Below are positions 8,058 to 39,769 of a DNA stretch of 64,000 nt, piece after piece. The position numbers and the translations under genes are program-made. This DNA comes from Branchiostoma lanceolatum (lineage: Eukaryota; Chordata; Leptocardii; Amphioxiformes; Branchiostomatidae). Every line of letters starts with the position of its first letter. The first letter of the stretch is position 1. Below the pieces are notes generated by a model that was not told the origin of the DNA, did not search any database, and saw only the letters and a list, made by a program, of their open reading frames with translations. The DNA lies in the NCBI RefSeq assembly GCF_035083965.1, contig NC_089724.1, positions 18,618,974-18,682,973 on the forward strand, given 5' to 3'.

Positions 8058-11000
8058 ATGGCTAAGAGGAGGAGGTCTAGCTCTGTGGGGATGGATGGAC
8101 GGCTGGAGGAGGACATGGGTCCTTCCATGAAGACTCGCAGGAAATCTGCTCCATCTATTGATACAGGTGTGTTTGTGTCAATCACTTTGGAATTGTATTC
8201 AAATATGATAGATATAGTAAAACAGAAAGACTATATATTGTAAGTGTAGGGAGAAAGAAGGAGCATCTACTTTTGGGAAACATTGTACCTCTGTTGAACT
8301 AAAGCATGAAGGTAAAAAAAGTACCTTCGTGTAGTGTGCATTTTTCACTAGTAGCGCATGAAGCTTGTTGTATCAAAATACATAAACATATTTAATTATC
8401 ATTATTCTCTACATGTACCGGTAATGATTAATATGTCATGATGTACGTCATGCCCAGACTAGAGTACTAGTCCCATTTCTTTTCTTCAACAGCACTGATT
8501 ATTTAGAACTGATTAAGGGTGAGGCCACTGTGTGGTTTGAATATTCCTACCCTTGCTACCAGCAAGTTTGCCTGGCAATATTGAGTCCTAATCCTATGCA
8601 TATTATGCTGTTTTTCTTACTGTGGTGGCGCTATTATTGACTTCATTATTGTCCATTTATCTTTTTGCCCTAAATGATGCTTTTTTCCTTCTCTATGCCA
8701 GCCTATCCTAGGATTGGTAGGTCACTTTTAAAGCTTTCCTGTGGTGTGTAAATTAATATCTACTGGTCTTGCTTGTCTTGAAAGTCTTCTAAGAAATAAC
8801 ATCGGCATGACACTCACCAGAACTTATTCTCTCCCTAGAGTTAAAACAGTTGTTATCTACAAGCATGTTGTTTACATATTGTATGATTTACTACAGTAAA
8901 GATATAATGTGTAGGTGACTGCCAATGTCATGGCGATCATTCCTGAACTTGTTTTATTTTGTTTTGTTGCTGTCCTCCTTCCACAGGTGAGGTCATCCAA
9001 GACCTGTATGACATCATTCGCAACCATAGGGACGAAAATGGCCGCCTTCTGTGTGATCCGTTCATTCGCGCTCCCAACCGCCGCAATGCCCCAGACTTCT
9101 ACGAAGCTGTGGACACCCCCATCGACATGCTCAGGATTCAGCAGCGAATCAGAACAGACGAGTACCGCACGCTGCAGGACTTCACTGCTGATGTGGAACT
9201 TCTCGTGAACAATGCAAAGAGGTACTACCCACAGGGTAGCCAGCAGTACAACGATGCCAGCGCCCTGTGGGAAATCTATGTGGAGGCTCGAGATGAAATT
9301 CTACACGAGGTCCATGGGGGCATCAGTGGGGACACACTGGAGGCAAAGGCAAAGAGGGGAAGGGAGGAGATGGATGAAACAACAGAGGAGGAGGAGGAAG
9401 AGGAGGATGTTGAAGGGGAGGATCAGGAGGAGATAGACTTCCCTCCCTTTGCAGCAGATACAGAGAATCCCTACGAACAGCTCTTCGTAGCCATGGCCAA
9501 TTCCACTGATCCAACAGGCAGAGCTATGTCGTTCCTGTTCCAGAAGCTGCCAGTCCGTTCCGAGTTTCCTGAGTATTACAAGATCATCAAAGATCCCATG
9601 GATCTGACAATGGTTGCTCGTAAAATCAAGAGAAATGTCTACAACACACTTGCAGACATGGAGAGAGACATCAGCCTGATGGTACGGAATGCCAAAACCT
9701 TCAATGAGCCAGGATCACTTGTCTACAAAGATGCTGTGGCACTGAAGAAGATTTTCTCACTGAAGAAGGCAGAGCTTGAGGGAGAGCCTTTAGGAGTCAG
9801 GAGTTCGGACAGATCTAGTCGGAGGAGTGGTAGGTCAGGACTGAGCAGCCGGCTGTCAGCCATCACGGCTGCCCTGCAGTATTCATCAGAGGAAGAGGAC
9901 CAGAGTGAGGCCAGCGAGCGAGTGTCAATCACAGAGTATGAGGAAGAGTCCGAAGCAGACAGCTCCATGTACGAGGAGGGGAACACATTCCTGGCACTGT
10001 ATGACCACGTCAGAGGGTACTCAACTGGTCAAGGGATGTGTCTCTCCGAGCCATTTCTTAAGCTCCCGTCCAAGAAGGCATACCCTGACTATTACCAGGA
10101 GATCAAACATCCCATGTCCATGTTGAAAATCAGAAGCAACATTAAGCAGGGTTTGTACGAGAACCTTGACCACCTCGAAGCTGACTTCACCCTGATGTTT
10201 GAGAATGCCAAACAGTACAACATGACAGGGTCTCGCATTTACAAGGACGCAGTCAAGCTACAGCAAGTCATGCAGATCAAGAAAAGAGAGCTGACCAAGT
10301 CTGATAGCAACTTCGAAGACACAGAGAGCGTGCTAAGCAGTGCTTCCGGTGTCAGCAGAAAAATCAAACGTCCACAGATCATGGAAGATCTGGAGGAAAG
10401 ACGGAAGAAGAAGAAGAAAGATGAAGGAGAGAACACCATGAAGGGCCGCCTGCGGTTCCTGTATGACGCCATGATAGGATATTGTGATGCATTTGGTCGG
10501 TTTCTCATTGAGCTGTTCATGGAAAAGCCTTCCCGGAAAGACTACCCTGAGTACTACAAGATCATTCTGGAGCCTATCGACATGAAGACGATCGATTACA
10601 ACATCCGAACTGACAAGTACTCCAGTGTGGAGGCCATGTTGGAAGACTTTGATCTCATGTTCAACAATGCACGCCACTTCAATGAGGAAGGTTCACAGGT
10701 GTATATAGATGCCTGCACGCTGGAAAAGGTTTTGAAAGACAAAGTAAAACAGCTGGGGCCTCTGCCTTCAGAAGGCGGTCTTTTCTCACCAAAAGCAGGA
10801 CTGAAGGGGCCAAGAAAGAGTTCGCCAAAGAAGTCCAAGTTTTTGACACCCCTGCAGCAGAAGTTGCGGGACATGTACGATGCAGTGAAGGACTACAAAG
10901 ACTCCACCGGCCGCAAGCTCTGCTTCATGTTCCTGCAGCTTCCCTCCAAGATAGACTATCCCGACTACTACCAGGTCATCAAGAAGCCGATCGACATGCA

Positions 11001-14000
11001 GAAAATTGAAGCCAACATGCGATCCAACAAGTACAACACTGTGGAGGATTTTTTGGAGGACTTCCTCCAGCTTTTTGACAATGCTTGCAGGTACAACGAG
11101 CCAGACTCACAGATATACAAAGATGCACTGATCCTGCAACGGGCCCTCCTGGAGAAGAGAGATGAAGTCCACGGGGATGGGAGCTCAGAAGTGCCAGACA
11201 TCCGTGGATGTGTGCAGGACCTTCTGAACAGTCTCTTTGTATCCGTTCTCAACCACCAGGACGAGGAGGGGCGGTGCTACAGCGACTCGCTCTCAGAGTT
11301 ACCCGAGAAAGAAGACAAGAAGGAGAGGGAGCAGCAGCAAGAACCTCACAAGAGAGGTCCGGCAAGCTTCAAAGCCATCCGCAGAAACCTAGACAAGGGG
11401 AGGTACAGAAGGCTGGATGTGTTTCAGGAAGATGTGTTCCGGGTGTTCGAGAGAGCCAGAAGAGTCAGTCGCACTGACTCAGAGATGTATGAGGATGCAG
11501 TGGAACTCCAGCAGTTCTTCATCACCATCAGGGATGAGATCTGTAAGAATGGCGAGCTGATGCTGTCCCCAGCCCTCAGCTACACTCACAAGCACCTCCA
11601 GGTGGAGCTGGATGCTGAAAAGAAGGAGAAGATCCCAAAAGAGTTGGAGGAAGACAAGGAGAAGAAAGAGGATGATGGGAAGGTGGAAGATGAGCTTGAG
11701 GAAGAGTCCAGTGAAACGGCAATGCAGCGCAAATATAGTGAGGATGTCAGCTGGGAGGACCAGTCATTCCGTGTGGGAGACTTCGTCTACATAGAGAATC
11801 AGGACAAAAGCCAGCCCCCTCATATTGTCTGTATCGAGAAACTGTTTCAGGATGACCAAGGGGACCAGTGGCTGCATGGCTGTTGGTTCTATCGTCCAAA
11901 GGAGACCTTCCATTTGGCTACAAGGAAGTTTCTAGAGAAGGAGGTGTTTAAGAGTGACTACTACAACATCGCCCGCATTGCTAACATAAGAGGAAGATGT
12001 TTCGTGATGTCAGTGAAGGAATACTTCAAGAGTAAGCCGCTAGGTGTCAGTGATGAGGATATCTTTGTATGCGAGTCTCGTTACAGTGCAAGAGCCAAGG
12101 CCTTCAAGAAGATCAAAATCTGGCCCACTCCCCCTAGTAATGTAAAGATAATCCCACGGGAAGAACCACTGTCTAAAGTTCGAGTAGCATCAGTTTTTGC
12201 AGAAGAAGCCAAACTAGAGGAGCAAGAGGCAGAAACTGAGGATCAAGAGGAGGAGGAAGAGGAAGAAGATGTGATTGACAAAGTCAGGGAGAACATTGCA
12301 GTGGATGCATCAAGCACCACCGAGCCTGGTATTTCCCATTATGAGCAGTTCATCTATGGTGGAACCTGCTTTAAGCTCGGTGACTCTGTCTATGTGAAGT
12401 CCAACAGGGAGCAACCCCTCATGGCTCGTATAGACAAGATGTGGGTGGATGCCAACAGTGATCCATGGTTTCATGGCCAGTGGTTTATCTACCCCTCAGA
12501 GACAGATCACAACCCGACCAGGCTGTTCTACAAGAACGAGATCTTTCTGACATCCATGGAGGAGTCCAAGTCCATGAGGACCATCCTGGGGAAGTGTTGC
12601 ATCCTGGCCTATAAGGACTACCTCATCTGTCGGCCCACAGAGTTCATGGAGGATGACATCTGGGTGTGCGAGGCTCGCTATTATGAGACTGACAAGCAAA
12701 TCCGCAAGATCAAGGCCTTGAAGAAGTACAGCCTCTCCCCTAAAGTGACGGATGATGAGATCTTCTTCTTTCGTAAGCCCGTCGTCCCAGGAAAGGTCCC
12801 CTCACCAAAGTTGGCAGAGATTTCAGAGGAGCCTGTTGCTTTTGCTGTACCTCCTGATGCGGAGGAAGAACTGCAGCAACCATCAACTCCCATAAAGGCA
12901 CCAAAAGCCAAACGGCCTCCAAGCGGGTACATTCTGTTCTCCAGCGAGATGCGAGCAACGCTGAAGAAGCAGAACCCCAACTACGCCTTCGGGGAGATCA
13001 GCCGCATCGTCGGGATGGAGTGGAAGAACCTGAGCGCGGCGCAGAAAGCCGTGTACGAGGAGAGGGCGCAGCAGAGCTCCAGCCAGAACGACGAGGAGTC
13101 GCCCTACCCAGCATCCCCTGCGTCGGGTCACAGCAGCAGCCGCTCGGACCCGCTGATCCTGGTGTGGGAGTGCCTGTGGGAGGGCTGCGACTACCAGTAC
13201 GAGAGCGAGAAGGACCTGGTGGCTCACCTGCTGGAGACGTCGGGTCACCTGAAGCCAGAGGGAGAACAGCAGGAGTACTTCTGCTACTGGGCTGGCTGCC
13301 CAAGGTCAAGGGTGAAGAAGAGCCTCCCGTTCCCCAACATCTCGGGAATGAAGCGCCACGTCCGGGAGGTCCACGTGAAGACGTCGTCCCGACAGATCCC
13401 GCTCAGCCAGAGAAGTCGGAACTACATACCGTACCAGCCTGGGTACCAGGCATCACCAAGCCAGTCACCACGCCCATTCACACCACAGGTACATATTCAT
13501 CATATTAACCAAGTTGACACACCTAATTGATCATTCTGTGTTGCAAGCTGACTTGGAGCAGTCTGAATTAAATGTAGTCTGAGCCATGCCAAATCTCTGG
13601 CACCTCTGTTAGCTTTTAAATGTCTCATTGTTAATTACATCATGCCTGGAACTTAGATGTACTTGGAAACATTCTTGTTTTTGCATTAACTTGACTGTAT
13701 TTTCAAGTTCAACTTAAATATTCTTGTTCACTTGCATGTGTCTTGTGTTTTAAAAATGGTAGTAACATGCAAATGGAGGTAATAAATTAATCAAAGCCTG
13801 TTACTCCATGTACTCTGCAGGGTTCTGGAGCTGTGCTGGGTGTGGTTCCTCCACCCATGCCAGCAGGAATGCTATCACAGGCACAGATAGCAGCAAATGG
13901 TATGTCCTCCTACAGTATATGTCCTATTGATTGTACAGAAGTACATGTAGTACTAGTCCTGGCAGTATTGTATTGAATGGATAAGTTTGGTTTCGATGTA

Positions 14001-16812: not shown

Positions 16813-19800
16813 AGACCTGGTATATTGCATTCCAACAACATTGCTTGATAGTTTTGACTGCCAAACAATTTTGTACCAAAGTACGTTTGCCGCTATATTG
16901 CACTGTACGTGGAGAAAATCTTAATCCTCCTGTCATCTCAGTTTGGAAAATGGACAATTCTTCACCAACCAGCTTCTAACCTGCTTCATATTGTTGAAGC
17001 TTTATCGGCTTTCATAAACATTATAGACCTGTAATGCTACAGTTGTTTTAACACTGAGGTTGATGTCAAAGGATGATAACAAGAAATCCTTTGGTCACAC
17101 CTAGATGTTTGTAAAAAGAAGCCTTATTTGCCTACTGGGACATTGTAGGCAAGATTTTAAACAGTCCTGCATACTCATCCATACCAGTAACCTTGAGTTT
17201 GCTCGAATTTTTACCATCCAAGGTAGAATTTCATAATACGAATTTGTGGGGACTACTTGAAACACCTTAATTGTTATTTTTGGTAGATGTCAGTAGCACT
17301 TTCAGTATAATTTTGTTTTAGATTTGTGGAAATGTTAAAATCTAGAGTTAGGTTTACTGACCATAGAACATCAAAAATGAACAAGAAGTATTCAAACAGA
17401 AAATATGAAAGAATACCATCACTATGTATGTGTAGGAAGTGCTAGTCCATATACATGTACATAAGTTGCCAACTTTGTTATTTCTGCCATTGTCATATTC
17501 AGAGGTATGAAATGGTTACACACATGTACAGCAGGAAATATGGATGACAACTAGATGCGGGGCCAGAGATTATCTTGAATTTGACAAATCATGTACATGT
17601 ATCGATTTAGCATATTTTATTTAACTTCAACATTACCAGAAGGCATGGCCAGTCCAAGAGAGCAAGCAACATGATGTGTCACTACCTGAACAGAATGTCA
17701 CTGTTGATTTTGCTAGAATGGCCTTTGTTGTGTCTGTAGTAGAAATAAATGATGGAAGACCCTAAGATTTGTGTCACTGTAGCCTTGCTGCATTGGTTTG
17801 CTTTTATAATCATTTTAAAACACATATCTAGGTGCCATGTATCACACTATTTGCACTGATTGACTGGGAAGATAGCTACAGTGTAAGTTTTAACAAACTA
17901 ACTCATCACATCATTAGACCATTCCAAGTAAATCGTATGGATGACATCTATGCACAGATTGATTTTCATCTGTTTTTTATAATATAAACACTGCATAGCA
18001 TTGTGAATGTAGGAACACAGACGGATTCAGCTTACGAAGGTCTTAGTTGTTTCGCCTTATTCCCAGGACAATAAAAGACGTTATTGGTTGTTTGCAACAG
18101 AAGAAATGACGTTAAACCTTTTACCCATGTTCAATCTACAATTCTCAACTGCTAGGTACATGCATCAAAAGAGTCAATGATGAAATAGTACTAGTAACTG
18201 ATTATGAATAGGATAAATCTTCATGTCATATCATATGATCGAGGAGGTGCCTCGAGCATGTTACAACAGCCTCATTACTCAGATGAGTACCTACTGGCTG
18301 TAATGATGCAACCTGGTGAAGAATGATAATAGTGATACGAATTTTGATGGACTAGACTAGTAAATATGACTTCTGTGCAGTACTCTATCTGTTTACATGA
18401 CCTACATTGTAAATCCCCATCTGTTGGCAAGCAGCCAGTTTCCCCGAAATCAGGTCATGCACTAAAAAGCCCATTGTAGTGTTTCCTTATGAATTATGCT
18501 AATGGAGCCTTGATTTGCATGATTCATGTCTAATAATGTCCACCTCTACTTATCTCCCAAATGCCGCAATAATGAAATTCCCACCATTTACCACTATGGT
18601 ATCTTATTGTATTCTCATTAAGTATGCAAATTAGGTAACCATTTGCATAATTGTTGATATCTTTCTTTCAGATACATATGTCACATGTTTGGGAGTCCTA
18701 TCATAAAATGCAGTGGTTTTATAAACTTTCCTCGTTAATTAAAGAAATTAGCTCCTGATATGCATAATTATTATTCAATTATGTAAAGCATCAACCAAGC
18801 TATCTGTAGGCATACCATAAATCATGACCATACGTCAACGCCTTCTCTACTTATTTGCCTCCAATGAAAACAAAAACAACCACTGCAGTTCCAAACAAGC
18901 CGCTAGGGGGCCAAAACTTAAAACACTTACTCCCTGTCCCAAGAACTATCCACTACTTAAATCATCAACCTGGTGCCTCCAGAAAATTTGACCTCAAACT
19001 TTGAAGGTATATGTATCTGCTTGGATGCCCATTATCGAACTTGACCTTTTTCTTCGAGACCCTTACCCATCCATTAAATATCATGCACAACCATCAACAG
19101 CTCGGATTTTGTTGTCCACATGCAACATACATACATACATAAACAGCCCGCTGCAGTACTGTAGGAAAACGCCAGGTACACCATTTTTGAACTTGATCTC
19201 CGTTTCTACAACCGATGCTCACCTACCAAAAATCATGAAGGTCCATTCACAGTTTCTCGAGGTATGCTCTTGAGTCAATTACACCAGCTGTGAGTACGTA
19301 TGCATGTCAAGACTCTTCACATTCATACAGACCCACAGCTGGCGTAACTGAAAACATAACCTCGGTGAAGCTAATAAGGCTTATTCAGCTGTTACACCAT
19401 TGTCTAGATGAAAGTTCAATTCTTGTTTAATACGACATTTCCTTTTTTACCTCAATGAACCCCCGGCAACTTGTATACCAGGCAATCAGGGACAGCATTA
19501 TCATCTAAGTCGGTCAGAAATCTGTAAGGGACACTGGGACAAGTTTTCTCCAGGCTTGTCTTCTATCCTACCACCTATTATGTATGTATGTATGTAACTT
19601 AAAACCCCAGGCTAGCTTTGTGACTGCCTGGCATTACCCCGGCCACGCCTGCCCCTGCCTGTACCCCGCCCCTTGTACCCTCTCCCCCTCTGTCCCCGGC
19701 CTCGTGCACTGTTGGCGTCAGCTTGCCTGCCACCTCCAGCTTCAGCCCCTGTGCATAGACATCGAACAAAACGTGAAACCTCCAATTAGATATGATATCT

Positions 19801-20088
19801 TATATTTAGGAGAACTTCTTAAAATCCCTGCAATGGTATTATAGGTAATATTCATATGTACTTAGTTAACCAATTGTATAGATTTTGTTTCATTATATCT
19901 ATTTGTACAGGGACTGCAGGAAGAATAGTGCGCATTGAGTTGTATCACTAATGGAGATCCAAATAAAACAAACAAACAAACTTGTCCAAGTTACTCGCAT
20001 GGGTGTATTGAGGCATTGGTTGAATATACCGTACTCGTAAGGCCACAAGGACACAGGAAAAAAAGTCGAGAATCGATTTTTAACATTT
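16813..20088. other. PBRM1 3' UTR and intergenic DNA
   Basis: No coding exon is visible here. Candidate polyadenylation signals for PBRM1 (AATAAA) are at 17744-17749 and again near 18071. The stretch 18450-19400 is AT-rich with several ATGCAAATTAG-like words and looks like old repeat DNA. Short CATA and TATG tracts occur at about 19127-19140 and 19579-19594. PBRM1 and the minus-strand polymerase-helicase gene converge on this region. Confidence 0.5.
19584..19985 (+). mobile_element. Possible 3' end of a non-LTR retroelement
   Basis: The segment ends with ggactgcaggaagaatagtg, then atggagatccaaataaaac, then a short (AAAC)n run. This layout, with an AATAAA-bearing terminus and a simple-repeat tail, is typical of 3' ends of CR1/L2-type elements. 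No reverse-transcriptase reading frame is preserved, so the assignment is tentative. Confidence 0.35.
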
Positions 20089-23000
20089 TCAGTAGTGTGT
20101 GAAACAACACTGCAGCTTACTTAACTGCTCCAGCTTGTTCTCCCGAATCCACTGAATCCACTTCTTCCAGTCGTCACTGCCCTTCTCCAGGGTCTCCCCG
20201 GCACCCACCACGATCAGCCCCCGCCTGGCTCGGGTCAGCAACACGTTCATTCGGCGGGGATCGCTCAGGAAGCCTGCAAAACAATCAGCAACGTCATTTG
20301 AGTTTAAGGGGCAAATTGAGACTGCAAACTATGTTGCTTTAAGGAGACTAGGTTCTTTAGCTGTACCATTTTCACTCGCACTTCGTCAAAAAATGCACTA
20401 CGTTTACATTACACACTTACCAACGTATCCTCCCTCATTGGCCCGAACAGCAGAGAAAATGATGACGTCACGTTCTTGTCCTTGGAACCCATCTACTGAC
20501 CGGACGGCGATGTTCCGCTTCAAGCCCTCTTTGATCTTTTCGATCTATTCGTGTGAGGCCAAGCAAATTTAATGAACAGCAAGTAGTTTTCAAAAAAAAC
20601 ACAAGGACACAATCTAATAGACGCATGATGTTTTGCAACATTTACCGGGGAATAAGATATAACATTACACCCTTTAAACAAGGTTAATTTTTTTTGGTAA
20701 CATTTACGTACGCTGTATCACTGATTGGCATAGCTTGATACATACCTGCGCCTTGTAGGGTGACACGATCCCAATGTCATCCTCACGAATGTCACCTCCC
20801 TCAAGCAGTTGTTTTGTGACGTTGGTGACAATTTGGACCTCTTCATCATTAAACTTGGACGTCCCACGGGATGTCTCGCGAGAAGAAACGTTAACAAACG
20901 AAACTGGCATTTTCTGGTTAGGCCAGTTGAACCCCGAGGGCGGCATTCTGTCGGATGCTTCTACGCCATTTTTAATCCGACCTTCGTAGAAACGTTCTGA
21001 TGGGAAGGTCGAAATTGCCGGATGCATTCTGTACTGTGTGTCCAGAAGGTGAACCTGAACCTTCTGTCCTCTCCATCTGAAATTAAAACAGAACTTCAAT
21101 ATTTTCTTCGTCTGCGCTCTCAACAAAGATTAAACTCATGGCCTCTTTGATAAGCAAGCACGGCAACTAGTCACATGCATTTGAAACTCAGTCATTTATA
21201 ATGGACGACAATGATCATTTCTATATTCTTAGACTTTATGTTGTTGTCTTAGTAAAATGTACAATACTGAATATATTAACCTTTCGAAGAGGGAGATTTT
21301 CAACTCCTGTGCATCCTCGGTCTGTACGAGCGGTGGGAGTTGCTGGTCGTCCCCGATGAGACAGACCTGCTGACAGCCGTGAGACAGGGCACACAGCACC
21401 GCCGGCTCCGTGGCCTGCGCCGCCTCGTCAACGAGCACACGACGGAACGTCAGCTGCTGCAGAACCGGGCTGCCCGCGCCGATACACGTCGTGCAGATGA
21501 TCTGTGTTATAATGATAGAAGTTCAGTCACTGAAAAGTTTCATTGGCTTGAAGTAGAAGAAATATCCAATACGTTGTGTTGAACATCATGTTCATCTGAC
21601 TCTTGTCTGTCTATATTTGGAAGATGATAGAGCTACATGTTATACTGGACGTACCTTCCAAATAATATTCCCTTTGCACAAAACTTTCGGGCCATTATAG
21701 ATACAAAGATGCAGACATTTTTAATAAAACTCTTATCACTTACCTTTGCCTTGGACAGGATCGCTTTAATGCCCTGAGCTTTCTTTCTTCCCCTCCTGGA
21801 TTCCTCCGAGCCGTACTTCTCGTCGTACCGTTTGTCGAGCGTGAGGTGCCTGAGGCCATACCTTACCTTCTCGGGCTGACCAACGCGCAGTATCTGCTCT
21901 TGTGGAACATTTCTGCGGGGAACAAATAGGAGAGCGTCAATATCTGTGTTATGATATCACCATCTTAACCTTACACTATACGTGTCATATCAAGCCTTGC
22001 CTTGAGTAAGGCAAATAGAAGGTTACATATCTCGCATGGCACCCTGGATGATAGAAAGTGGCAATACCTTATCCAAGAACATTACTCTGAAGCAGTTGCG
22101 ACTACTATTTAGAAATGATCAGACCTTTTCCTACCTGTCTATAAGTTTCTGTATGATGTTGTCAACTCCCTCGTTTGTCTCTGCCACGGCCAGAATCTTG
22201 TTGTCACTTTGCTCCTGCCATCGGGCGATGACTTCAGCCGCGGCCCTTGTCTTCCCTGTTCCCGGCGGTCCCTGGATCAGCGTGATCTCAGACGAGGCGG
22301 TCGCTTGGACAGCTTTCTCCTGGCTTCTGTTCATCATACTCTCCGTAGACCATCGCTTCTTCGGTCGCACGTCTGTAGGAACATCAAAGCCAGAACTCTC
22401 AGTTCGTTGATGCTCGAATGGAGCATCGGTTTGGAGATCTTCACCATCTGTAGGACCAGTAGGGGGCGCTTCTGTTGTTCCTGGTACCTCGGGTTGTGCT
22501 TCCGCTTCACTTCGGGTGACGTCGGCTGCCATTCGGTCTTCGTCGATGTCCTGCTCGAAGATAGTGGTCAGTGCGCCAACGCTACCTCCGAAAGATGAGA
22601 TTACGCGTTCACAAATCAGGTTACTGGGGGTGTCCGAGTCGGCTTTCACGCAGAGGCAGTCGAGTGCCGCCATTACCCGCTTGTAGGAAATGCGATTGCC
22701 GATGTGGACGGCGGTGAACTGCCCGGGAGTGATGTACTGTAGCTGCGTCCTGCCACTGGTCCACAGAACTTTCAGCTCAACTTCTACCGAATACAAAGAA
22801 GACAGAAGTTAATCAACATCACAAGACACATTTGAAGTAACCTTAAGCGGGATGAAAAGACTTGTGATACGTTATTCTATAGCTGCGACGTTGAACGTTT
22901 GTACACATACCGGTCCTGTCGATGTTGACTTCGGTCACTATGACTGAGGGTGAAGTCTGAGACGACGGTACCGCCGTTATCTGCAGCTGGTCCCCGACAG

Positions 23001-26000
23001 ACAGCGGCAGCTCGTTCTCCTCCCAGTCAGCAATGATGCACCGACCATCATACTCTTCCACGCGTATGACCGAGATCTCGTCCTCTCTCGCGCGAAGAGC
23101 CCGGCTCCGGCAGCTACAGACCTCCTCCCGGACTTCCATGGTACAAAGCGCTGTCCAGTGTAGGTAGTAATCCAGGCGTCCGGGTACAACGTCAGATTGG
23201 TTCATGGGAAGTACACCTAAAGCGTGACAACGTAAAATATGTTACATTCGGTGTAAGAAAATGACACAGAAAAATTTGTTTAAATGGTCACGTCAAAAGT
23301 ATATAACGGCCTATACTAGATGTTCAAAAGTATATAACGGCCTATACTAGATGTTCACATGTACTTATTGTCCCCTATTATTGAGTCAAGATCTAAATGT
23401 TAACCTGTTTTGTCGTTTGGTGCTACAAAACTGTGTTTCACATACCATCTCTGATCATGTCCAGCAGACTGTTGGCGCAGTCCACGCCTGCGTACTGAAG
23501 GTAAACGAACAGTTGTCGTAACCTGTCCAGTCCAAAGACGACGCCATCTCTTTGGAGAGTTCTACAAAATCTGATGAAGAAAATGTATGGTCTTAAGATG
23601 ACATTCACAAGTATTGCAATATCATTATTTACACCAGAACACAATACAATATGACAATCGGGCCGCTTATTTTTATTGCATATATCAACAGTGCGGCTTA
23701 CCATGCTTCTTCAAAGAGATGGAAATTTGTCGATGGCTTAAATCTGTTGGACATTCGTAACCCGCCCACGGCTACGTCAAACTTGCAGCGTGACTTAACG
23801 GACCTCGACAAATGGTCCCACGATCAGCAAATGGTCCTACATCCCGGTAAATGCAAGGTCATGCACATCCAGTTCAGCAAGGTCGCATCAATCCCTCCCC
23901 CCTCTACCTTAACAACATCGAACTGAAACAGGTGCAGGTGATGAGAATTCTGGGGGTTCTCCTGCAGGCCGACCTGAAGTGGAATGCACATGTAGACCAC
24001 ATTTGTAACAGTGCCAGCCAGCGGCTGTACCTACTTCGGAGACTGAAATACTTTCATGTTCCCAAAGAGGACCTTGTCTCAGTGTATGTGTGTTATGTAC
24101 GTCCCGTCACGGAATATGCCGCCCCAGTCTGGCACTCTGGCCTCACAAGTGCATTGAGTCAGAAGATTGAGAAAATTCAAAGAAGAGCCGTCAGGATAAT
24201 CCTGGGGTCAGACTACTCCGGCTACACCGATGCCTGTACCATCCTGCACCTACCTACTCTCCAGGCGCGTCGTAGCAACCTGACTCTGAACTTTGCCACC
24301 TCTCTGCTATCATCTGAACTGTACCGCCACTTCCTGCCACCCGTAAGACAGTCAATCAGCAGCCGACGCACGCGTTCGTCGAACAAACTGCAACTTCAAC
24401 GCTGTAGAACTGACCGTTATAGAAACAGCGCCATACCTCAGATGACCCGTCTGATGAACAATACTTGACTTTACCATCTGTTTACTAGTATATGGCTTTA
24501 CTACATGTCATTCTGTCTCAAACGAAATAACGCTGATTCCCAGCCTTTAGCACTACGCCGCTCGTTTAACTTCCATTGTTTTTAATATGTATTTACCTTT
24601 TACGAATTAATGACTCGTACGTCTTGTAAAGTCAGACTGCAATTCAGTCTGTTGACTGTCACGGTCTGATTGTATTGTGTGTGCAATAAATAAACCATTC
24701 ATCAATCGAAACATTGGACTTAAGTAAAGAGGCTTCAATTCACCTGCGGATTCTCGTGAGTGTGACCTCTGTGTCCACGTGAGCTACCGGCTGCACGCAC
24801 ATATATGACGTCATGAACACAATGTTGATGAGCACGTGAAAGTATCTCTCTTCGGTCTCGGGTCGGAGGTTGACTTGATCACGATACCTCCACAACAAAG
24901 ATTCAAGCCTCAAAGCTGCCTGCAGTGTGAAGAGGAGAAACACACACTAAGCCGTTTGTTTATGTTAGCGGTTATAAGTTTGAAAAAGGCAGTAACAAAA
25001 GTGATATATATATATATATATGTCACAATTGTTTCTTCTCACACTAACAATAAGACAGCTGTAAGTGAAACGTACCTCGGGTAGTTGTCCAAAGAGTTCA
25101 ATGATATGGTTAAGCGAGTCACTTGTCAGCGTCCCGGCCTCTCCGGCCTCACAGATAGCTTCACACATGGATTCAAACTTGCGCAGGCGCTCAGCCTCCT
25201 CTGAAAGGACTTCTTCTGGTTCAACCCCCAGCTCAGGAAACTCTCGGTGACTTCCTACATCGACAGTGAACGCCGTGCCTTCCACGTGCGTCTCTCCTGT
25301 TGCGTCTTGCGACGGTTCTTCCGTGAAGGCTTCCCGCTGTCGCCGCTCGGTGTAGATGCTCGGGCCGCACTGCATATGTGTAACTTGATAAAAGATTTCA
25401 ACTGACTGGACTTCTTCCTTCTGCAGCTTGACCGAGCGGTCTCTTCGTTCTCCGGGAAACCTGTCCAGCGCCACGCTCATCTTGACGGATCCGTCGCTCA
25501 ACCGTAGCCACACGAATGTCCTCGGGCGTATGACGTTGTAGATCTGCAGGTGTTCCGAGTCCAGCTCCAACAGGTAGTCGTCGTTCCTGTGGCCATCTTG
25601 AAGGTCCACCATTTCCATCCCTCCCCCGGAGTGGTCCGAGAAGAAGACGACTGTGGGACGCCCCGAGCTCTGGTCTGTAGTGATGACGTCCTCCATCACT
25701 AGCGGCCCGGGAAGACACAGTCCCAGCACCAGGACTGTTCCAGCCAGGCAGAACTCAAAGATAAGCAGCTTCGGCGTCTCGGACGTCAGGACACTTCGGA
25801 CGGTCGGCCAAGATATGTCTTCATCGGACTGCTGGTAGAAGAGTGACCACTGGTTTGGCGACATTATGTCCATCCGCTCTATGTCGTTCTCCGTAAGAAC
25901 CCTTGATCTGTAGAAGGCATTGCTGATGTACTTCATGGGTAGTTCAGGGCAATCAATTACCACTCTTGCCTTCTGACTTGGCGTGAAACGCGTGAAATCG

Positions 26001-28849
26001 ATCCGGCTCACGTAGCTCTGAAGGTCCCCGAGGCAGCCGTTGCTCTCACACCATTTGTACAGGAAACGGAAGAGCTGATACTCGCTGACGTTGATGTCCT
26101 TGTTATTCAGAAGGTCTGTGATGTCGGGCTCTTCAAAGACTCTAACTGTCAGGTCGCTGTCTACAGCTACACTGTCGGCGAGGTAGAGATCCGCGCGTTC
26201 CAGCATCTTCTGCCACACGTATCTGGTCTCCCGTGCTTCTGGCGGCTAAAGAGTGAAATACGTCCATGTCCGTTACTGATGAAAGGCAAAGGCGAAAGAT
26301 GGTCTATCTACGTCCTCAATGAAATCAGACATCCAAACAAACACTGGACATGAAAAAAATATTCACATGATAGAAAAGGCTCGTACAGTAGATACCTTGA
26401 GCAAACGAGGTGGAATAACAACGCCTTTCCCGGTCTTTGCTGTGTCGACTGCAGTGGCGAACAGCTTCGCGATATTGCGACACTCGGACGACTTGACGCC
26501 TCTGACGTCAGCCCATCTGTTGAAGAGCTCGTTGAGTCGGCTGACCGTGCGGCTGTTGTAGTTCGCAAACACGGAAATGAGGTCGTCACTGGAGACACGT
26601 TCTTTCTTTGCAGCTTCTCCACCTGAAAAACAAAATTTCCAATGTCTATTTTGTGATCTTCTCAAAGGAAACGTTTCCCCATGAGACGTGGTCTGCAGGC
26701 CCTACTTGTGAGATTTTGCATGATCACAGTCACTATACACATGTATTTGATTATGAATACCAAAACTAGAATAGGCAACAAGGTGCATTTTAACATAAGT
26801 GCTGTATGTACATAACAAATAGCTAGCAACAAATAGTCATGAATGATTGTGATTTATATTCATAACATGCATTGTGTAGAGATCACTTGAAGAGTTACCT
26901 GGATAGGAGAGCGGTTTCTCCTCACACTCTGGAACCAGATCTGGATCCCAGCACACAAAGAACTTATCTCCATCGAGGTCGCTGCCGGCTATCTCATCGG
27001 CATGTGGCCGCTCGCCTACCAGAAACAAGGGACACATATCAATACAATGTAGACCTTTGTCAGTTATGTCAAGCATCCACCACATTGACTCCGCCACGCC
27101 ACTTCACATTCTCTTTCCTGTAGATTGAAAACTGACGTTGAAAAAAGTTTGTTTCGTCTTGTTTTGTTTTGTTTTAACGTGTAGCTGGTTTAGTGCGTTA
27201 CCTTGTACAGGAAACACTATGCAGTCCACAAGATGGCGGCACTCCTCCACATTGACACACTGCAACACGCGGAAGTCTCCGGGATGGTAACACGGACACT
27301 TCACGACAGCCACCGTCGTGTCAGCGAATACCTGTCACACAGCAGAGAAAAAGCACGTTTGATATAATGTCCTGGAATAGCATGTGCAAAATAAATGTTG
27401 GCCCTTCAGACATTTGTATCAAAACTAATATCGGAGATGCGTATCATGCATAATTATAATTAATGAGGTAAATGATTGAAGAATGGCAATGAGAAAAAGT
27501 AAATACATATGTATCTTAAGTTGTACTCATATATTTGTTCCTACCTGCGTTTTCCCTCGCACTGTGGCTTGGAAGAAGCACTGCCCAGGCTGAAGCTTGC
27601 CCGAAGGATCACAGACCCCGAAAACGTTTCTGGACTTTTCTATGGGTATTTTCAATGCTCTCGCTGGCTCAGGCTTTGTGTTGAGGAGTTTGTGGACTTT
27701 GTTAGCTTTGGGGGGACGTCGCACTCTATTACGGAACCCCCGAAGTATCTCCAGCGTCTCGTTGTCAGGTCCGTCCTCTCGCGAGAACAGACGTTCGGCG
27801 AGACCCATGTATCCCCGGGCGCAGAGGTGGCGGAATGCTACTTCTTTGTCAATCTCTAGGCGGTCAAGTTCCCGGAAATACGTATCTTGCTTTGACAGGA
27901 ACACATCGTCTTGGATGCCTAGCGCTGAGAGCATCATGATGTACTGTTTGTTGAGCTGGCCGAACGCGTAGGGCTGGGAGATGCCGTCATCACACACACC
28001 GAAGACGTGCGGCGCTGGTAACTTCCACTTGAACTTCTCTTGTGAGGGGCGAATGCACACACCGTTGGGAAGAGATGGGTCGATCATGACGATACCCTTG
28101 CATCCCTTCATGCGGAACTGGATAACGGAAGGGACCGGTGGGTCCTGGTGTCGGTAACGCTCAGAAATGTCTTTGTCGTCCGTGATTTTTCTGGCGCAGG
28201 CTACAGATATGAAACCGCAGCCGTCAGTGAACGTGAACCCGTTGGCCTCGATGTCCTTGATGTGATCTATCTCCTTCACGTGAAGTTCAAGGCACTTTGT
28301 CGCCGTCGAGAGTAAAAGACCGATTCGTGCTGCTCGCTTGGAAGGATTCTTTATGGCTTCAAACTCGCCGAATCTGTTTACCAGCCGTTCCCAAGGACCC
28401 AGGACTCCCTGATCGTACAGAATGCACGTTCTCTCTCGGAGCTGACTCGCGCTGTGACCGAAGAACACATAATGGCGCTTCTGCTGGTTTCCAACCGACA
28501 CTTTGAACCCTGACTTCAAGACTGCCGTGACGACATGACGGGGTGTACTCAGGTCAAAATGGAGGACGACAAAATGGCCGACGTCGTGTTCTCGGAACAG
28601 TGAACACATCTTAGCATCACTGAAGTCCGTCTCGACGAAAAAATCGTCTATTCTTAACTTCTTCCTTCTGACGTCTTCACGTCCCCTCTTGCGTCGTATG
28701 TAGACAACTTTGATGGGAACTTTCTGGAGTCTCTCCTGTGGTCTTGACCGTTTCTGGTTATAGATCAGTTCTTTCTGCGCAACACGTCCGTCTTCTGTGT
28801 CTGGATTCTCCAGAAAGCCCGTTAGAGTACGCGGATCTGTTGACACCAT
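20089..28849 (-). CDS. RNA-dependent RNA polymerase fused to a UPF1-like superfamily 1 helicase
   Basis: Fourteen exons in one continuous frame give 1,744 residues: 28849-27545, 27331-27202, 27015-26899, 26622-26396, 26245-25076, 24919-24744, 23570-23446, 23216-22911, 22783-22135, 21912-21744, 21501-21281, 21076-20746, 20544-20421 and 20273-20089. An in-frame TAA 33 nt upstream supports the start. Residues about 60-593 form a cellular (QDE-1/EGO-1 class) RdRP: FTDGCGFIS, FRMKGCKGIVMIDP, then RPHADEIAGSDLDGD with the catalytic Asp triad at 491, 493 and 495 (26966-26980), and the C-terminal VDTAKTGKGVVIP. Residues 594-983 are of uncertain nature; part looks BACK-like. Residues about 1050-1744 are a helicase with a barrel domain and all motifs: GPPGTGKT (about 1357), AETNEGVDN, LVDEAAQATEP, LIGDDQQLPP, LLDTQYRMHP, VDGFQGQERD, LLTRARRG. 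RdRPs make dsRNA for silencing, and partner helicases of this class unwind RNA. Alternative: two genes, with the helicase starting at Met 23203-23205. A weak donor just before the final stop could add a further exon. Confidence 0.85.
23294..23355. repeat. 31-bp tandem duplication
   Basis: Two exact adjacent copies of a 31-bp unit (beginning caaaagtatataacggccta) lie in the intron between the eighth and seventh exons of the polymerase-helicase gene. There is no sign of function. Confidence 0.9.
23640..24700 (+). mobile_element. 5'-truncated, decayed CR1-like retrotransposon, antisense in the RdRP-helicase gene
   Basis: The plus strand encodes the C-terminal part of a non-LTR reverse transcriptase, with family phrases DLDKWSHDQQMVLHPGKCK, ILGVLLQADLKWNAHVDHIC and EKIQRRAVRIILG. 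It is broken: the reading frame shifts near 23890, and the catalytic F/YxDD motif reads FVDG. The 3' end has aataaataaacc near 24685. It fills almost the whole 1.17-kb intron between exons 24919-24744 and 23570-23446 and is oriented opposite to the host gene. It cannot be active. Confidence 0.88.
25004..25021. repeat. (TA)9 microsatellite
   Basis: A pure TA dinucleotide run in the intron just downstream of the 1,170-nt exon of the polymerase-helicase gene. Confidence 0.95.
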
Positions 28850-31599: not shown

Positions 31600-32619
31600 A
31601 TGAAGACTTCGCGTGATATTCTGAGAGTATTTCTGTGCGGCGCTCACAGCACCGGTAAGACCACACTTCTGACCGACCTGGGCAAGGCCGTGAGAATACA
31701 CGGAGAACCCGAGGTGGCCAGGAAGGTCATCAAAGACATGGGGCTGACACGAGAGCACCTCGACTACAAGAAAAACCCAAAGGCTTTCGAAGATCTCCAG
31801 GTATGTGTGGTTTATTTTGGCATTCTCATTAGCTTACGTAATGCCTTTCATTCTTCAAAGAGGATATCAAGTAACTATCACCATTTATGATCTAGCAAGC
31901 TTGTTGACTAGTAGTACTCGACGGAAACGACCTAATTTGGTTTCAACTGCAAGCGCCATGCAACCTACAAGAAATTCCTTTTAAACCGATGTTAAGCGAG
32001 TGACTATGATATCTACTGTCCATATAGCTGAAGATTCTGGACGCCCAGTGCGAGACGGAGCGGAGAAATGCCGAGGCGGGGAGAGACTACATCGCAGACC
32101 GGGGGATAGACCCTGTGGTGTACGCTGACGTCTGCCTGGGGGAGGACGCCAAACAACGTCTGCTGGGATCGCATCAGGCCAAGGAGTGCATTGAAAGGTC
32201 TGGGAATGTAAACATAGCATGTTGGGCATGGGGAACCTGTTGTTCATAAATTCTACATTACTTCTAAACATGTATGTATTGAATTCTACTAGTTCCGAGT
32301 AGGACAGATATGATAAGTACTAGTATATCTCTTACTTTGCCTTTTACTGTGACCCTACCGTCGTTCCAGGTACAAGACGTCGCTGGTGTTCGTCCTAACG
32401 CCACACCAGGAGTGCATCAAGGACGATGGGTTCCGGATGATGGGGACTCTGGAGGAACTGCAGCGGTACACGGTTGCCATGACAACCATCCTGCACGAGA
32501 ACGACATACCCTTTACACTCATCCGGGACCTTGATCGTCAGAAACGAGTTCAGACCGTCCGAGAGAAAATTCTAGAAATGCGGCCGGACCTTGGTGCTGA
32601 AGGCTGTGATAATAACTGA
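31600..32619 (+). CDS. Small NadR/AAA_28-type P-loop NTPase
   Basis: Three exons (31600-31800, 32028-32197, 32370-32619) join in frame to a 206-residue protein. Residues 9-20 (VFLCGAHSTGKT) are a Walker A motif of the GxxSTGK[ST]T type, as in the NadR kinase domain and the AAA_28 family. VVYADVCLG (about residues 96-104) could hold the Walker B-like acid, and LVFVLTP follows a predicted beta strand. The gene is nearly all core domain, with no signal peptide or membrane segment, so a cytosolic nucleotide-binding enzyme or kinase is likely; its substrate cannot be read from the sequence. An in-frame ATG at 31534 would add 22 residues, but the A-rich ATG at 31600 starts just before the first beta strand and is preferred. 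AATAAA lies at 32805-32810. Confidence 0.8.
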
Positions 32620-36600: not shown

Positions 36601-39600
36601 TCTAGTAGCAACACAAGAAGAGGTATTCTTGTACAATAACACTCAGCAACTGTTAAACAATTATTTCTTTTAAGCATATGCTTACACAAAAAAAGCCTTC
36701 AACTTGTAAAGTCAACATTACCGAGCCAAGTACACCACATGGGCTGGCTATCACTGTTCAACCAGTTCCTCTTTCATCACTGATCAATGTTGTTTTCACT
36801 ATGATATTTTCCAGCGGATGATCTTGTAGGAAGGATCGTTCGCTACTTCAAGGCGTGGGAATTCTTCCTACTGCGGCCTCCCATTCTGTATCTGATGACA
36901 CCCATGCTCTACTGGAAGCACTGTCGGGCTGTGTGAGTCAACAACTCCAGTACACACTCCACATACAAGTTTCCATATATACATGCTCTGTTGATTAGAA
37001 CATAGATTAAAAAGACAATCATCCAAATTGTCCTCTGCATTTCTTCGGTTGTCAGTCAGACGAAGTATGACTGTGGGTGTGGCAACCCTGACCACCACTA
37101 GTAATACTTCGTCTGACAATGAAGGATGCAGAACCAACTACTGTGCACCTGTCTTACCAAGGTTTGCACAGTTCATATTCCTGAAAACAAAGGGGACAGA
37201 CTTACAGCAAGTGCTTTACTTTTAGAATACAGTAAGTTGGTTTGCCCTAACAGCAGCATTTTGTCCTGATTTACTCCTGATCTTACTTATAATCCTTGGA
37301 CAATTTCTCAAATTGCATCCATCTCTGTTCTCCCAGGAATGACTTGAATGAAGCTATTGCTGAGCTGGTGTCAAACAAGAGGGAGGAGTTGAAAACAGCG
37401 CCATCTAGCGATAAACCTGACTTTGCCACGTGTCTGCTGCAGGCAGAGGTAATGCCCACAACTGAGCTAAACCATTTTATCATCACATTTTCTGATTATT
37501 CACTATTCATGTCTATTGAATTCTAAATCACTGACTGTGGCAGTATCAAATACATGTTTGTGTGCAGGAGAGAGGAGAGGTGAGCCCTGCACATGTGCAG
37601 CAGTGTGTACATGTACTGGAGATGCTGCTGATCTGTTAAATGTTTAGAACACTGAAGTAGCCTTGGCTACCAATTTTCTGTTGGCCACTAAGTTAGGCAG
37701 CAGGGAGAAGGTTAAAATCTAGTTGTACATGTTTGTTTACAGGAGAGAGGAGAGGTGAGTCCTGCACATGTGCAGCAGTGTGTACTGGAGATGCTGCTGG
37801 CAGGGACGGACACCTCGTCAGTCTCCATTTACTACCTGCTGGTGTCCGTCGCAGAGAACTCACAGGTCGAGCAGAAAGTCTTAGAGGAGATGAGAGACAT
37901 CCTCGGTAAGGACTGGTGTACAGGGTAGGGGGTAGGGGTAGGGGGGCATTATGCTGCTGGATGGAATATCTAAAGATCCTTTTGTTAAGGACAGGGTGAG
38001 CTATCTTCTCTACAACAGATAAAGTTCTTGTCACTTGTTAATGGAAAAGAAAAGGTTATTGTAAAATAATGTACTTTTTAACACAGATAAAGACTAACAA
38101 CAGGGTGTCACATTATCAAACACACTGTAAGGCATCATGGGATATATTCTTTGTTGTTCCCAATCTGAACACATCCCAGCATACCTTGTGAGGTGAATAA
38201 TGATGATCATCTGAGCACACATTTCTCACTGATAAAAAACACCCTGCCATATGTCTGTATGGCTGTACACCCCCTGGCCCTTAGTCTTTACATTGACTAA
38301 GGCATTATCACATCTATGATGATATCTGTCTCCAGGAGAGCGTGACCCCACAAAGGCCGATCTGCCTCAGTTAGTCTACCTGGAGCGTGTGATTAAGGAG
38401 GCCATGAGGATCAAGCCAGTGGGCCCGGTCATCATGCGCCAAGCAAAGGAGGATGACAGGTTCCTAACTTACATCATCATTTACTATGTACTCATATCAC
38501 CCGTGAAAAACAATATCAGAGTGGTAAACAACTTTTACAATATCTTCCAACTTGACATATACATGTAATGATATTTGTCTGCATTATTATCTGTAGCAAT
38601 ACTGTAGATCAACAATAGCATACAGTGTTTGATACATAGACTTTTAGTATTTCGCATTAGAATGTAGCATTTTAGTACTCAATGATCTGTATTTTACATA
38701 TTTTGATCATGTGTGGTCATAAGTACATGTACATTTCGCCCATCTGGGCATGAATATGCAATCAAGATTATCATCATCTTAGTTACTTCAAGTTTTCAAA
38801 TGTTATTAACCTTCGCCCTGCTGGGTTAGCCTTTCAGGCACAGTAGTTTATTGGTTCTAAGGTTCGGCAGCAGGGAGATGGTTAAAGGGATTCGTGTTTG
38901 TGCAGGATTGATGGGATTGAGACTCCTGCTGGGACTAACATCATCCTGAACCTGGCAGACATGCACAGGCGCCAGGAGAACTTCCCAGCACCGGACCACT
39001 TCAACCCTCAGCACTTTGACAACAAGGTACAGTATCTTTGTTTGTGTTGTCTTCTAAGCCTATCACACAGAAGGAAAATCAATTGGCTGATGAGTCTGTG
39101 AGCTAATTATAGAATATGTTCAGCATTCTCTTCATCATCTTGTGATTTCTAGGGATTGACAATGGCCATTTGAGATGAAATTGTATCACAGGAAGTAATG
39201 ATATTTTCAGCAGCTTGCATTTGCTGGAGGATATCCTTAAAAAATATGATTTGCAAACTTCCCTTTCCTTTGAGGGGCATTTCCTTTGCTGTGTAGTCCT
39301 GGCTTTATCATGTTGCCCTATGGGAATCACTAAACATTTGACTACTCAGTCTTATATGTACTGCAGATATTTATTGTTTCTTTGTGACTTATACTATCTG
39401 TTGAAATATTCTGATCTTTACCTGCACATTTCAGTGTTTGTTTTCAATTGATTTCTGAACATAGTTTACATGTACATGTATATTAAATCCGACTTACAAA
39501 ATATTGTAGTTTACACTTATTCTACAATGTACTTTGTTACACCTCTACAGGACTTCCAGGGTGAGTACGTTCCCTTTGGCACCGGTCCGAAGGGCTGCGT

Positions 39601-39769
39601 GGGCCAGTTCCTGGCCATGATTGAGATGAAGGCCATCATGTGTACGCTTCTGCGCAAATACCGCCTCCATGCAGTCTCGGGGGAGTCGCTAGAGGGCATC
39701 GAGACTCACTGGGACATTGCACAACAGCCTGTCAATGCTAGTTACATGTACTTTGAAGAGAGAAACTAG
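33619..39769 (+). CDS. CYP19A1: Cytochrome P450 19 (aromatase)
   Basis: Aromatase converts androgens to estrogens in the endoplasmic reticulum. Ten exons join in frame to 496 residues (human has 503): 33619-33763, 34628-34778, 35357-35508, 36223-36408, 36815-36932, 37337-37448, 37743-37905, 38336-38459, 38906-39026 and 39551-39769. An N-terminal hydrophobic anchor (residues about 15-38) is followed by PPWLLGFGPLLSF, GDFVRVWIAGERTYVI, the I-helix LEMLLAGTDTSSVS, the K-helix EAMR, GTNIILNLADMHRRQENFP and the heme loop FGTGPKGCVG with the Cys ligand. These follow human aromatase closely through the whole length. Two differences stand out: the I-helix has GTDT where vertebrate aromatase has APDT, and an exon-7 fragment is duplicated upstream of the real exon 7. 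AATAAA lies at 39842-39847. It converges on NOP14, 297 bp away. Confidence 0.95.
37566..37629 (+). pseudogene. Partial duplicate of aromatase exon 7
   Basis: Sequence from the acceptor CAG through ggagatgctgctg repeats the start of the real exon 7 (37741 onward) with one substitution and an extra ATGT that breaks the frame. It then runs into unrelated sequence with a stop and lacks a donor. If the splicing machinery used this acceptor, the message would be frameshifted. Confidence 0.88.
38806..38885. repeat. 80-bp hairpin (MITE-like) with TTAACC..CCCTGCTG ends
   Basis: The left arm TTAACCTTCGCCCTGCTGGG and the reverse complement of the right arm TTAACCATCTCCCTGCTGCC pair at most positions. 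A single related arm (ggcagcagggagaaggttaa) is at 37696-37715, just upstream of aromatase exon 7. Two copies in introns of one gene suggest a small mobile hairpin family. Confidence 0.6.

Follow-up and report, generated by a model that had tools for sequence, protein, structure and literature searches.

An amphioxus RNA-dependent RNA polymerase joined to a UPF1-like helicase, and its relatives in animals, fungi and dinoflagellates

A single gene of Branchiostoma lanceolatum, read on the minus strand from 28849 to 19612, encodes an RNA-dependent RNA polymerase (RdRP) followed by a UPF1-like SF1 helicase. It lies in a window of 64,000 nucleotides (the whole stretch of DNA analysed here, to which all coordinates refer), head to head with a smaller gene for a P-loop NTPase; 2.75 kb separate the two start codons. 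The features are as follows.

19612..28849, minus strand: whole coding region, 15 exons; splice product identical to the NCBI protein P0001, 1779 residues
28849-27545, 27331-27202, 27015-26899, 26622-26396, 26245-25076, minus strand: exons 1 to 5
24919-24744, 23570-23446, 23216-22911, 22783-22135, 21912-21744, minus strand: exons 6 to 10
21501-21281, 21076-20746, 20544-20421, 20273-20121, 19748-19612, minus strand: exons 11 to 15
26225..28669, minus strand: RdRP domain, about residues 61-600 (exons 1-4, running just into exon 5)
26966..26980, minus strand: RdRP catalytic motif DLDGD, residues 491-495
25907..26137, minus strand: BACK-like helical part, about residues 630-706 (weak assignment)
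25382..25918, minus strand: TLDc-like beta domain, about residues 703-881, within exon 5 (predicted fold)
25076..25076, minus strand: border of exon 5 and its intron, after residue 983, a place that corals appear to share
22365..23216, minus strand: region before the helicase core, about residues 1084-1325; a profile with relatives aligns to residues 211-776 of the UPF1 chain
20131..22364, minus strand: UPF1-like SF1 helicase core, residues 1326-1731 (exons 9-14; AAA_11, AAA_12)
19612..19748, minus strand: RG-rich C-terminal tail, exon 15, from the fit to P0001
31600..32619, plus strand: AAA_28 P-loop NTPase, 206 residues (PF13521, E 1e-17, 65 bits)
31600-31800, 32028-32197, 32370-32619, plus strand: NTPase exons, in-frame with GT-AG borders

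The first-pass annotation had described fourteen exons in a single frame. Their GT-AG borders and open frame of 1744 residues held up, but a fifteenth exon had been overlooked: fitting the exons to P0001, a B. lanceolatum protein found by protein search at 100% identity, placed the end of exon 14 at 20121 and revealed exon 15 (19748-19612). The 15-exon splice reproduces P0001 letter for letter, and this identity, together with Pfam and motif checks, upholds the annotated reading of one gene making one protein with intact polymerase and helicase motifs. Protein searches returned proteins of similar length from B. floridae (LOC118414200; 87% identical) and B. belcheri (81% identical), the latter as a model without the RG tail. 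Given these two proteins, the exon structure and the fusion gene are, as far as sequence comparison goes, far beyond chance. In intron 6, an open stretch of 205 residues (23851-24468, plus strand) resembles by eye the C-terminal section of a LINE reverse transcriptase; its only Pfam match, ALKBH8_N, is below the cut-off.

The polymerase is of the eukaryotic (cellular) kind. The Pfam RdRP profile (PF05183) matches residues 65-595 (E 1.4e-106; 357.9 bits against a curated cut-off of 23.8), and the DLDGD site, of the DbDGD form, begins at residue 491, as annotated. Matches among PDB sequences are to maize RDR2 (7w84; 191 bits), Arabidopsis RDR2 (157) and QDE-1 (49-54), and the fold is of the RDR2/QDE-1 type.

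All the SF1 motifs annotated in the helicase are present, starting at residues 1357, 1483, 1508, 1546, 1658 and 1694, and the proposed Pfam check was positive for both AAA_11 (E 1.1e-44) and AAA_12 (E 9.7e-60, reaching residue 1708). A DEAD profile scores 19.4 bits, below its cut-off of 26. The best PDB scores are to UPF1 (240 bits), NAM7 (218) and SEN1 (up to 175); SMUBP-2 (141), DNA2 (132) and ZNFX1 (114) score lower. The likeness to UPF1 and NAM7 includes the region before motif I: when the profile includes relatives, the UPF1 match extends well upstream of that motif, and residues 1084-1325 presumably comprise a UPF1 1B-like part and an acidic variable loop. Unlike UPF1, the fusion protein has no zinc-binding CH domain (PF09416) among its Pfam matches up to E 1.

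Between the two enzymes, the first-pass annotation had seen a plain linker. This region carries, in addition to the weakly supported BACK-like part, a domain (residues 703-881) that is predicted to adopt a TLDc-like fold, like that of the TLDc proteins NCOA7, OXR2 and mEAK7. The fusion protein differs from these in having no sequence-profile match to them: Pfam TLD gives no match up to E 1, nor does it appear among the 25 of 99 families listed for 26 relatives.

The fusion itself is already known, to judge from the accessible text of two reports, although the first-pass annotation was unsure whether it had been described. Pinzón et al. (2019, PMC6396948) reported a B. lanceolatum RdRP, BL02069, with an added AAA_12 named in a figure legend. 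This is very probably the gene studied here (same species, full-length RdRP, preserved catalytic site), matched by its published description. The main text of that paper never uses the word "helicase", and nothing was found in its available parts on domain order, TLDc, spread or the neighbouring gene. In Fusarium graminearum, the published layout of Fgrdrp5 is alike in order and spacing: an RdRP, then DEXDc (1277-1478) and AAA (1475-1677). Fgrdrp5 differs in being fungal, with a helicase that its authors call DEAD-like (PMC11237814, as available). With RdRP, TLDc-like module and SF1 helicase in this order, the amphioxus protein belongs to the family of the Fgrdrp5 type, in the clade sense represented by F. 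proliferatum P0118; that protein shows 32% identity across 35% of the amphioxus query.

Other fusions, differently built, have been described. RDRs of Dictyostelium, oomycetes, Hydra and Nematostella are described, in the portion of PMC4791657 available, as cellular RdRPs fused to a DEAD-box helicase; in Dictyostelium and oomycetes this helicase, with its helicase-C part, is N-terminal, whereas the amphioxus helicase is C-terminal and of the SF1 AAA_11/AAA_12 type. The systems invoked as parallels by the first-pass annotation, Rdp1 with Hrr1 in Schizosaccharomyces pombe and EGO-1 with ZNFX-1 in Caenorhabditis elegans, likewise have an RdRP working with an SF1 helicase, Hrr1 being the orthologue of ZNFX-1 (PMC9276528, as available), but they are separate proteins and their helicases are remote from the fused ones. 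In the literature searched, which covers few subscription journals, no account was found that unites BL02069, Fgrdrp5 and the animal genes as one family, or that describes the TLDc-like part of the fusion; the only two papers with both TLDc and RdRP concern influenza restriction factors and firefly genomes, and neither is on the fusion by its title. The present comparison links BL02069, Fgrdrp5 and the animal genes as one conserved family.

How widespread is this family? Among the best 120 matches of a first search, 96 are RdRP then helicase, 24 are RdRP only, and 0 have the reverse order. A second search gave short helicases only; a third, started from a remote family member, brought in a further 21 proteins with both domains, including members from the dinoflagellate Effrenium, Aspergillus fumigatus and Amanita. 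The total is at least 117 (96 + 21), with the RdRP first in all. Together with the published Fgrdrp5 and BL02069, this count does not bear out the earlier statement that such polymerases and helicases are always separate proteins. On these sequences, the same design is present in amphioxus, corals, sponges, clams, fungi and dinoflagellates.

Motifs were counted over 116 of the 117 (P0269, with a partial RdRP only, was excluded). Simple patterns find DxDGD in 116/116, motifs I and III in 115/116 each, motif V in 112/116 and motif VI in 105/116. The patterns for motifs II and IV proved too narrow (43/116 and 59/116); in aligned columns, read for their commonest forms, motif II is mostly DEA[TSA]Q and motif IV mostly Q[YH]RMHP. 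The C-terminal tail contains at least four RG in 32 of the 116, and tails vary between family members: the clade B protein P0041 (clades are defined below) has CCCH zinc-finger matches past the helicase, the best stretch being residues 1987-2002.

The 24 RdRP-only relatives were considered as stand-alone enzymes and rejected. They look instead like intron-cut ORFs, because 22 of them stop matching full-length relatives at the amphioxus exon 5/6 border; P0022 also diverges there by eye, with its alignment continuing, and P0091 breaks at motif I. The 22 coincident ends suggest that this intron place is common to amphioxus and corals (Stylophora and Dendronephthya are the corals named; other cut ORFs are called coral-type by likeness to these). 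P0004 (1764 residues in a 5860-bp contig) and P0006 (1745 residues in a 5453-bp contig) are open across the exon 5/6 point and behave like spliced cDNA, an origin to which the contigs' small size points.

Some exceptions speak against a fusion that is universal in the family. Six helicase-only proteins (P0121-P0125 and P0127) fall inside clade A. P0124 and P0125 begin right after the exon 5/6 point, as expected of cut ORFs, and four or five of the six look like such ORFs. P0127, from the sea spider Nymphon striatum, bears the source name UPF1 and has a clade A helicase with no RdRP; the fusion may have split there, or the gene model may be wrong. In Alternaria P0261, likeness to the fused proteins of fungi ends near residue 1238 and the helicase core is missing: the sequence is either broken or a real loss.

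Trees were built from 36 of the 117 fused proteins, hand-picked by name and by sampling. The fused RdRPs form one clade (100/100) against an outgroup of only five non-fused RdRPs, namely two plant RDR2 and three others from outside nematodes and amphioxus. The fused helicases form one clade, with moderate support (87.2/78), against 16 helicases of UPF1, archaeal, Sen1, Hrr1 and ZNFX1 type. The same four clades appear in both trees: A, amphioxus, corals and a rotifer; B, sponges and bivalves; C, fungi (including F. proliferatum P0118) with the gnat Bradysia; and D, dinoflagellates. Across the 36 taxa, 21 of 33 splits are common to the two trees, and random relabelling gave at most 3 in 2000 trials. 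The order of the clades differs: only the RdRP tree puts A and B together (98/100).

The helicase tree also rules out a relative of Hrr1 or ZNFX1, which the earlier parallel had implied. Four Hrr1-type helicases (P0311 labelled by its source name, the other three by a PF25396 match) and one ZNFX1 form a separate, remote clade (100/100, branch 1.31), in keeping with the gap between UPF1 and ZNFX1 in the PDB scores. The fused helicases group instead with archaeal and three algal or dinoflagellate helicases (89.6/90). The named UPF1, P0267, lies outside the fused clade, together with P0270 and weakly with Sen1 (38.8/73), and is nearer to that clade than Hrr1 and ZNFX1 are; the UPF1 label of P0188 and P0265 is our own, without a source name.

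The TLDc-like module is common to these clades. Its BACK/TLDc part in clade A is related to that of bivalves, of sponges, of ascomycetes and of basidiomycetes with the gnat (99.2-99.8% in profile comparisons). Dinoflagellate linkers reach 85.9% against the profile of the BACK/TLDc part and 99.0% (E 9e-18, 285 columns) against a merged opisthokont profile, to which three single dinoflagellate sequences score 97.9-98.0% each; whole dinoflagellate linkers give no match to clade A alone. Whole-linker comparisons give 99.8-100% over 615-665 columns, but by parts only BACK/TLDc is strong: the 1B part ranges from 3.5 to 90% among opisthokonts, and the middle of the linker (residues 890-1090), taken alone, gives no relation between clades (0.1-0.5%). 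A TLDc domain belonging to every RdRP was rejected, as the tails of three non-fused RdRPs give no match (at most 0.4%); seven N-terminal control stretches likewise give no match.

Matching trees and a common TLDc-like module fit one old fusion, and the family probably arose from a single joining of RdRP, TLDc-like module and helicase; the case is weaker on the helicase side, where clade support is moderate. Unless gene transfer spread it, the family may be older than the divergence of animals, fungi and alveolates. There is a hint of such transfer: both trees place the gnat protein (P0111, Bradysia odoriphaga) among basidiomycetes (92.6/97 and 60.2/72), so that the gene may have passed into the gnat, or the sequence may be a contaminant.

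The neighbouring NTPase gene is a further link. Twelve combinations of in-frame GT-AG exons are possible, a few residues apart, and the set given above is one of them. At E 1e-5 or better, 45 of the 117 fused proteins have an N-terminal domain that the product matches, including those of the sponges Dysidea and Ephydatia and the clams Mya and Mercenaria, and Pfam finds AAA_28 at the N terminus of four of five tested. Identity to the Dysidea fused protein is 38% over 190 residues. Two Mytilus proteins and all eight clade A proteins have no such N-terminal match, and the best PDB match, NadR (17.8 bits), is insignificant. Fused in some sponges and clams and adjoining in amphioxus, the NTPase is a better Rosetta-stone hint than the RdRP-helicase pair itself, and it is likely to be a partner of the fusion protein, although it may have closer relatives among proteins without an RdRP.

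Helicases of the UPF1 family travel 5' to 3', whereas a polymerase copies its template in the 3'-to-5' direction; on one strand, therefore, this helicase cannot precede its own polymerase. The earlier suggestion that the helicase clears the template for copying therefore fails in that form, although the RNA could be stripped beforehand. We favour a different arrangement, to which we assign a probability of about 0.72: the gene makes one protein, a member of an ancient RdRP-TLDc-helicase family of animals, fungi and dinoflagellates, in which the helicase would take the polymerase to an RNA's 3' end. The helicase would load onto a target RNA and run 5' to 3', removing proteins and structure; the joined polymerase would thereby be carried to the 3' end, where it would begin the complementary strand. 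The helicase may also peel the product from the template, the RG tail may help to hold RNA, and the TLDc part may dock the machine to a partner. The domain content and order, intact motifs, family spread, common TLDc-like module and matching trees were computed directly. That the enzymes are active, that the helicase moves as described, that the TLDc part docks and that the protein serves defence or RNA quality control is inferred. Helicase direction, TLDc partners and NTPase binding are testable leads.

What the double-stranded RNA would be for is a separate matter, and amphioxus poses it sharply: it retains intact RdRPs yet shows no siRNAs. One plausible reading, which we put somewhat short of even odds, is a non-RNAi machine for innate antiviral defence or RNA quality control that turns selected single-stranded RNAs into dsRNA for other sensors. 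The available text on B. lanceolatum (PMC6396948) reports transcribed RdRP genes but neither RdRP-type siRNAs nor clear RdRP activity in small-RNA libraries, as expected if a full RdRP is kept for another purpose. The helicase's top score to UPF1 points the same way, as does the match of the TLDc-like fold to NCOA7-AS, described as regulating the V-ATPase and keeping viruses from entering (PMC8005160, as available), although a common fold is no proof of function.

It is less probable, though with a real share of the odds, that the protein amplifies RNAi in the usual way known from fungi or nematodes; it would then make dsRNA for Dicer or short secondary siRNAs, with the helicase as an accessory. 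Deletion of the like-built Fgrdrp5 lowers Dicer-dependent 21-25-nt 5'-U exonic siRNAs by about 32% and cuts ascospore discharge to 47.6% (PMC11237814), and Nematostella RdRP1-3, which may be of the fused or the non-fused kind, rise after poly(I:C) (PMC8476169); both statements come from parts of these papers. Against this proposal, the B. lanceolatum libraries contain no candidate siRNA population, and secondary siRNAs are reported absent in the accessible portion of a study on Nematostella (PMC12768352). We lean towards the view that, in animals, the protein makes dsRNA for something other than classic siRNA amplification.

A more speculative extension, which we consider doubtful, would unite RdRP, TLDc-like domain, UPF1-like helicase and AAA_28 NTPase in one ancient eukaryotic RNA-copying complex, serving antiviral defence or RNA surveillance without siRNAs; the helicase would bring it to RNA 3' ends, the TLDc part would tether it at an endomembrane or V-ATPase site, and the NTPase would act as a switch.

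That the gene is a decaying relic without function is very improbable. Losses do occur among amphioxus RdRPs, for the active site is intact in only three of six B. lanceolatum candidates (PMC6396948) and one of six B. belcheri genes is absent from half of individuals (PMC12373286), according to the available parts of these reports; but here the RdRP and helicase cores remain 83-91% identical across three Branchiostoma species while two loops of the protein drift to 60-74%. Two adjacent genes fused by the gene model, an idea suggested by the 1.2-kb intron with repeat-like sequence (24744 to 23570) and the Met at 23203, are made very unlikely by the same domain order in at least 117 proteins, several in contigs that barely exceed the coding part.

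Three other genes in the window were recognized in passing. A polybromo-like gene is marked by an ORF of 1527 residues (8947-13527, plus strand), in which six stretches match bromodomains, two match BAH and one an HMG box. A cytochrome P450 match (PF00067, E 1.7e-13) lies at 39536-39766 on the plus strand, with P450-like exons, by eye, upstream of 39536 to about 34.4 kb. An unbroken ORF of 1946 residues (56622-62459, minus strand) contains a ketoacyl-synthase C-terminal part, acyl transferase, dehydratase and KR, and resembles an animal polyketide synthase gene.
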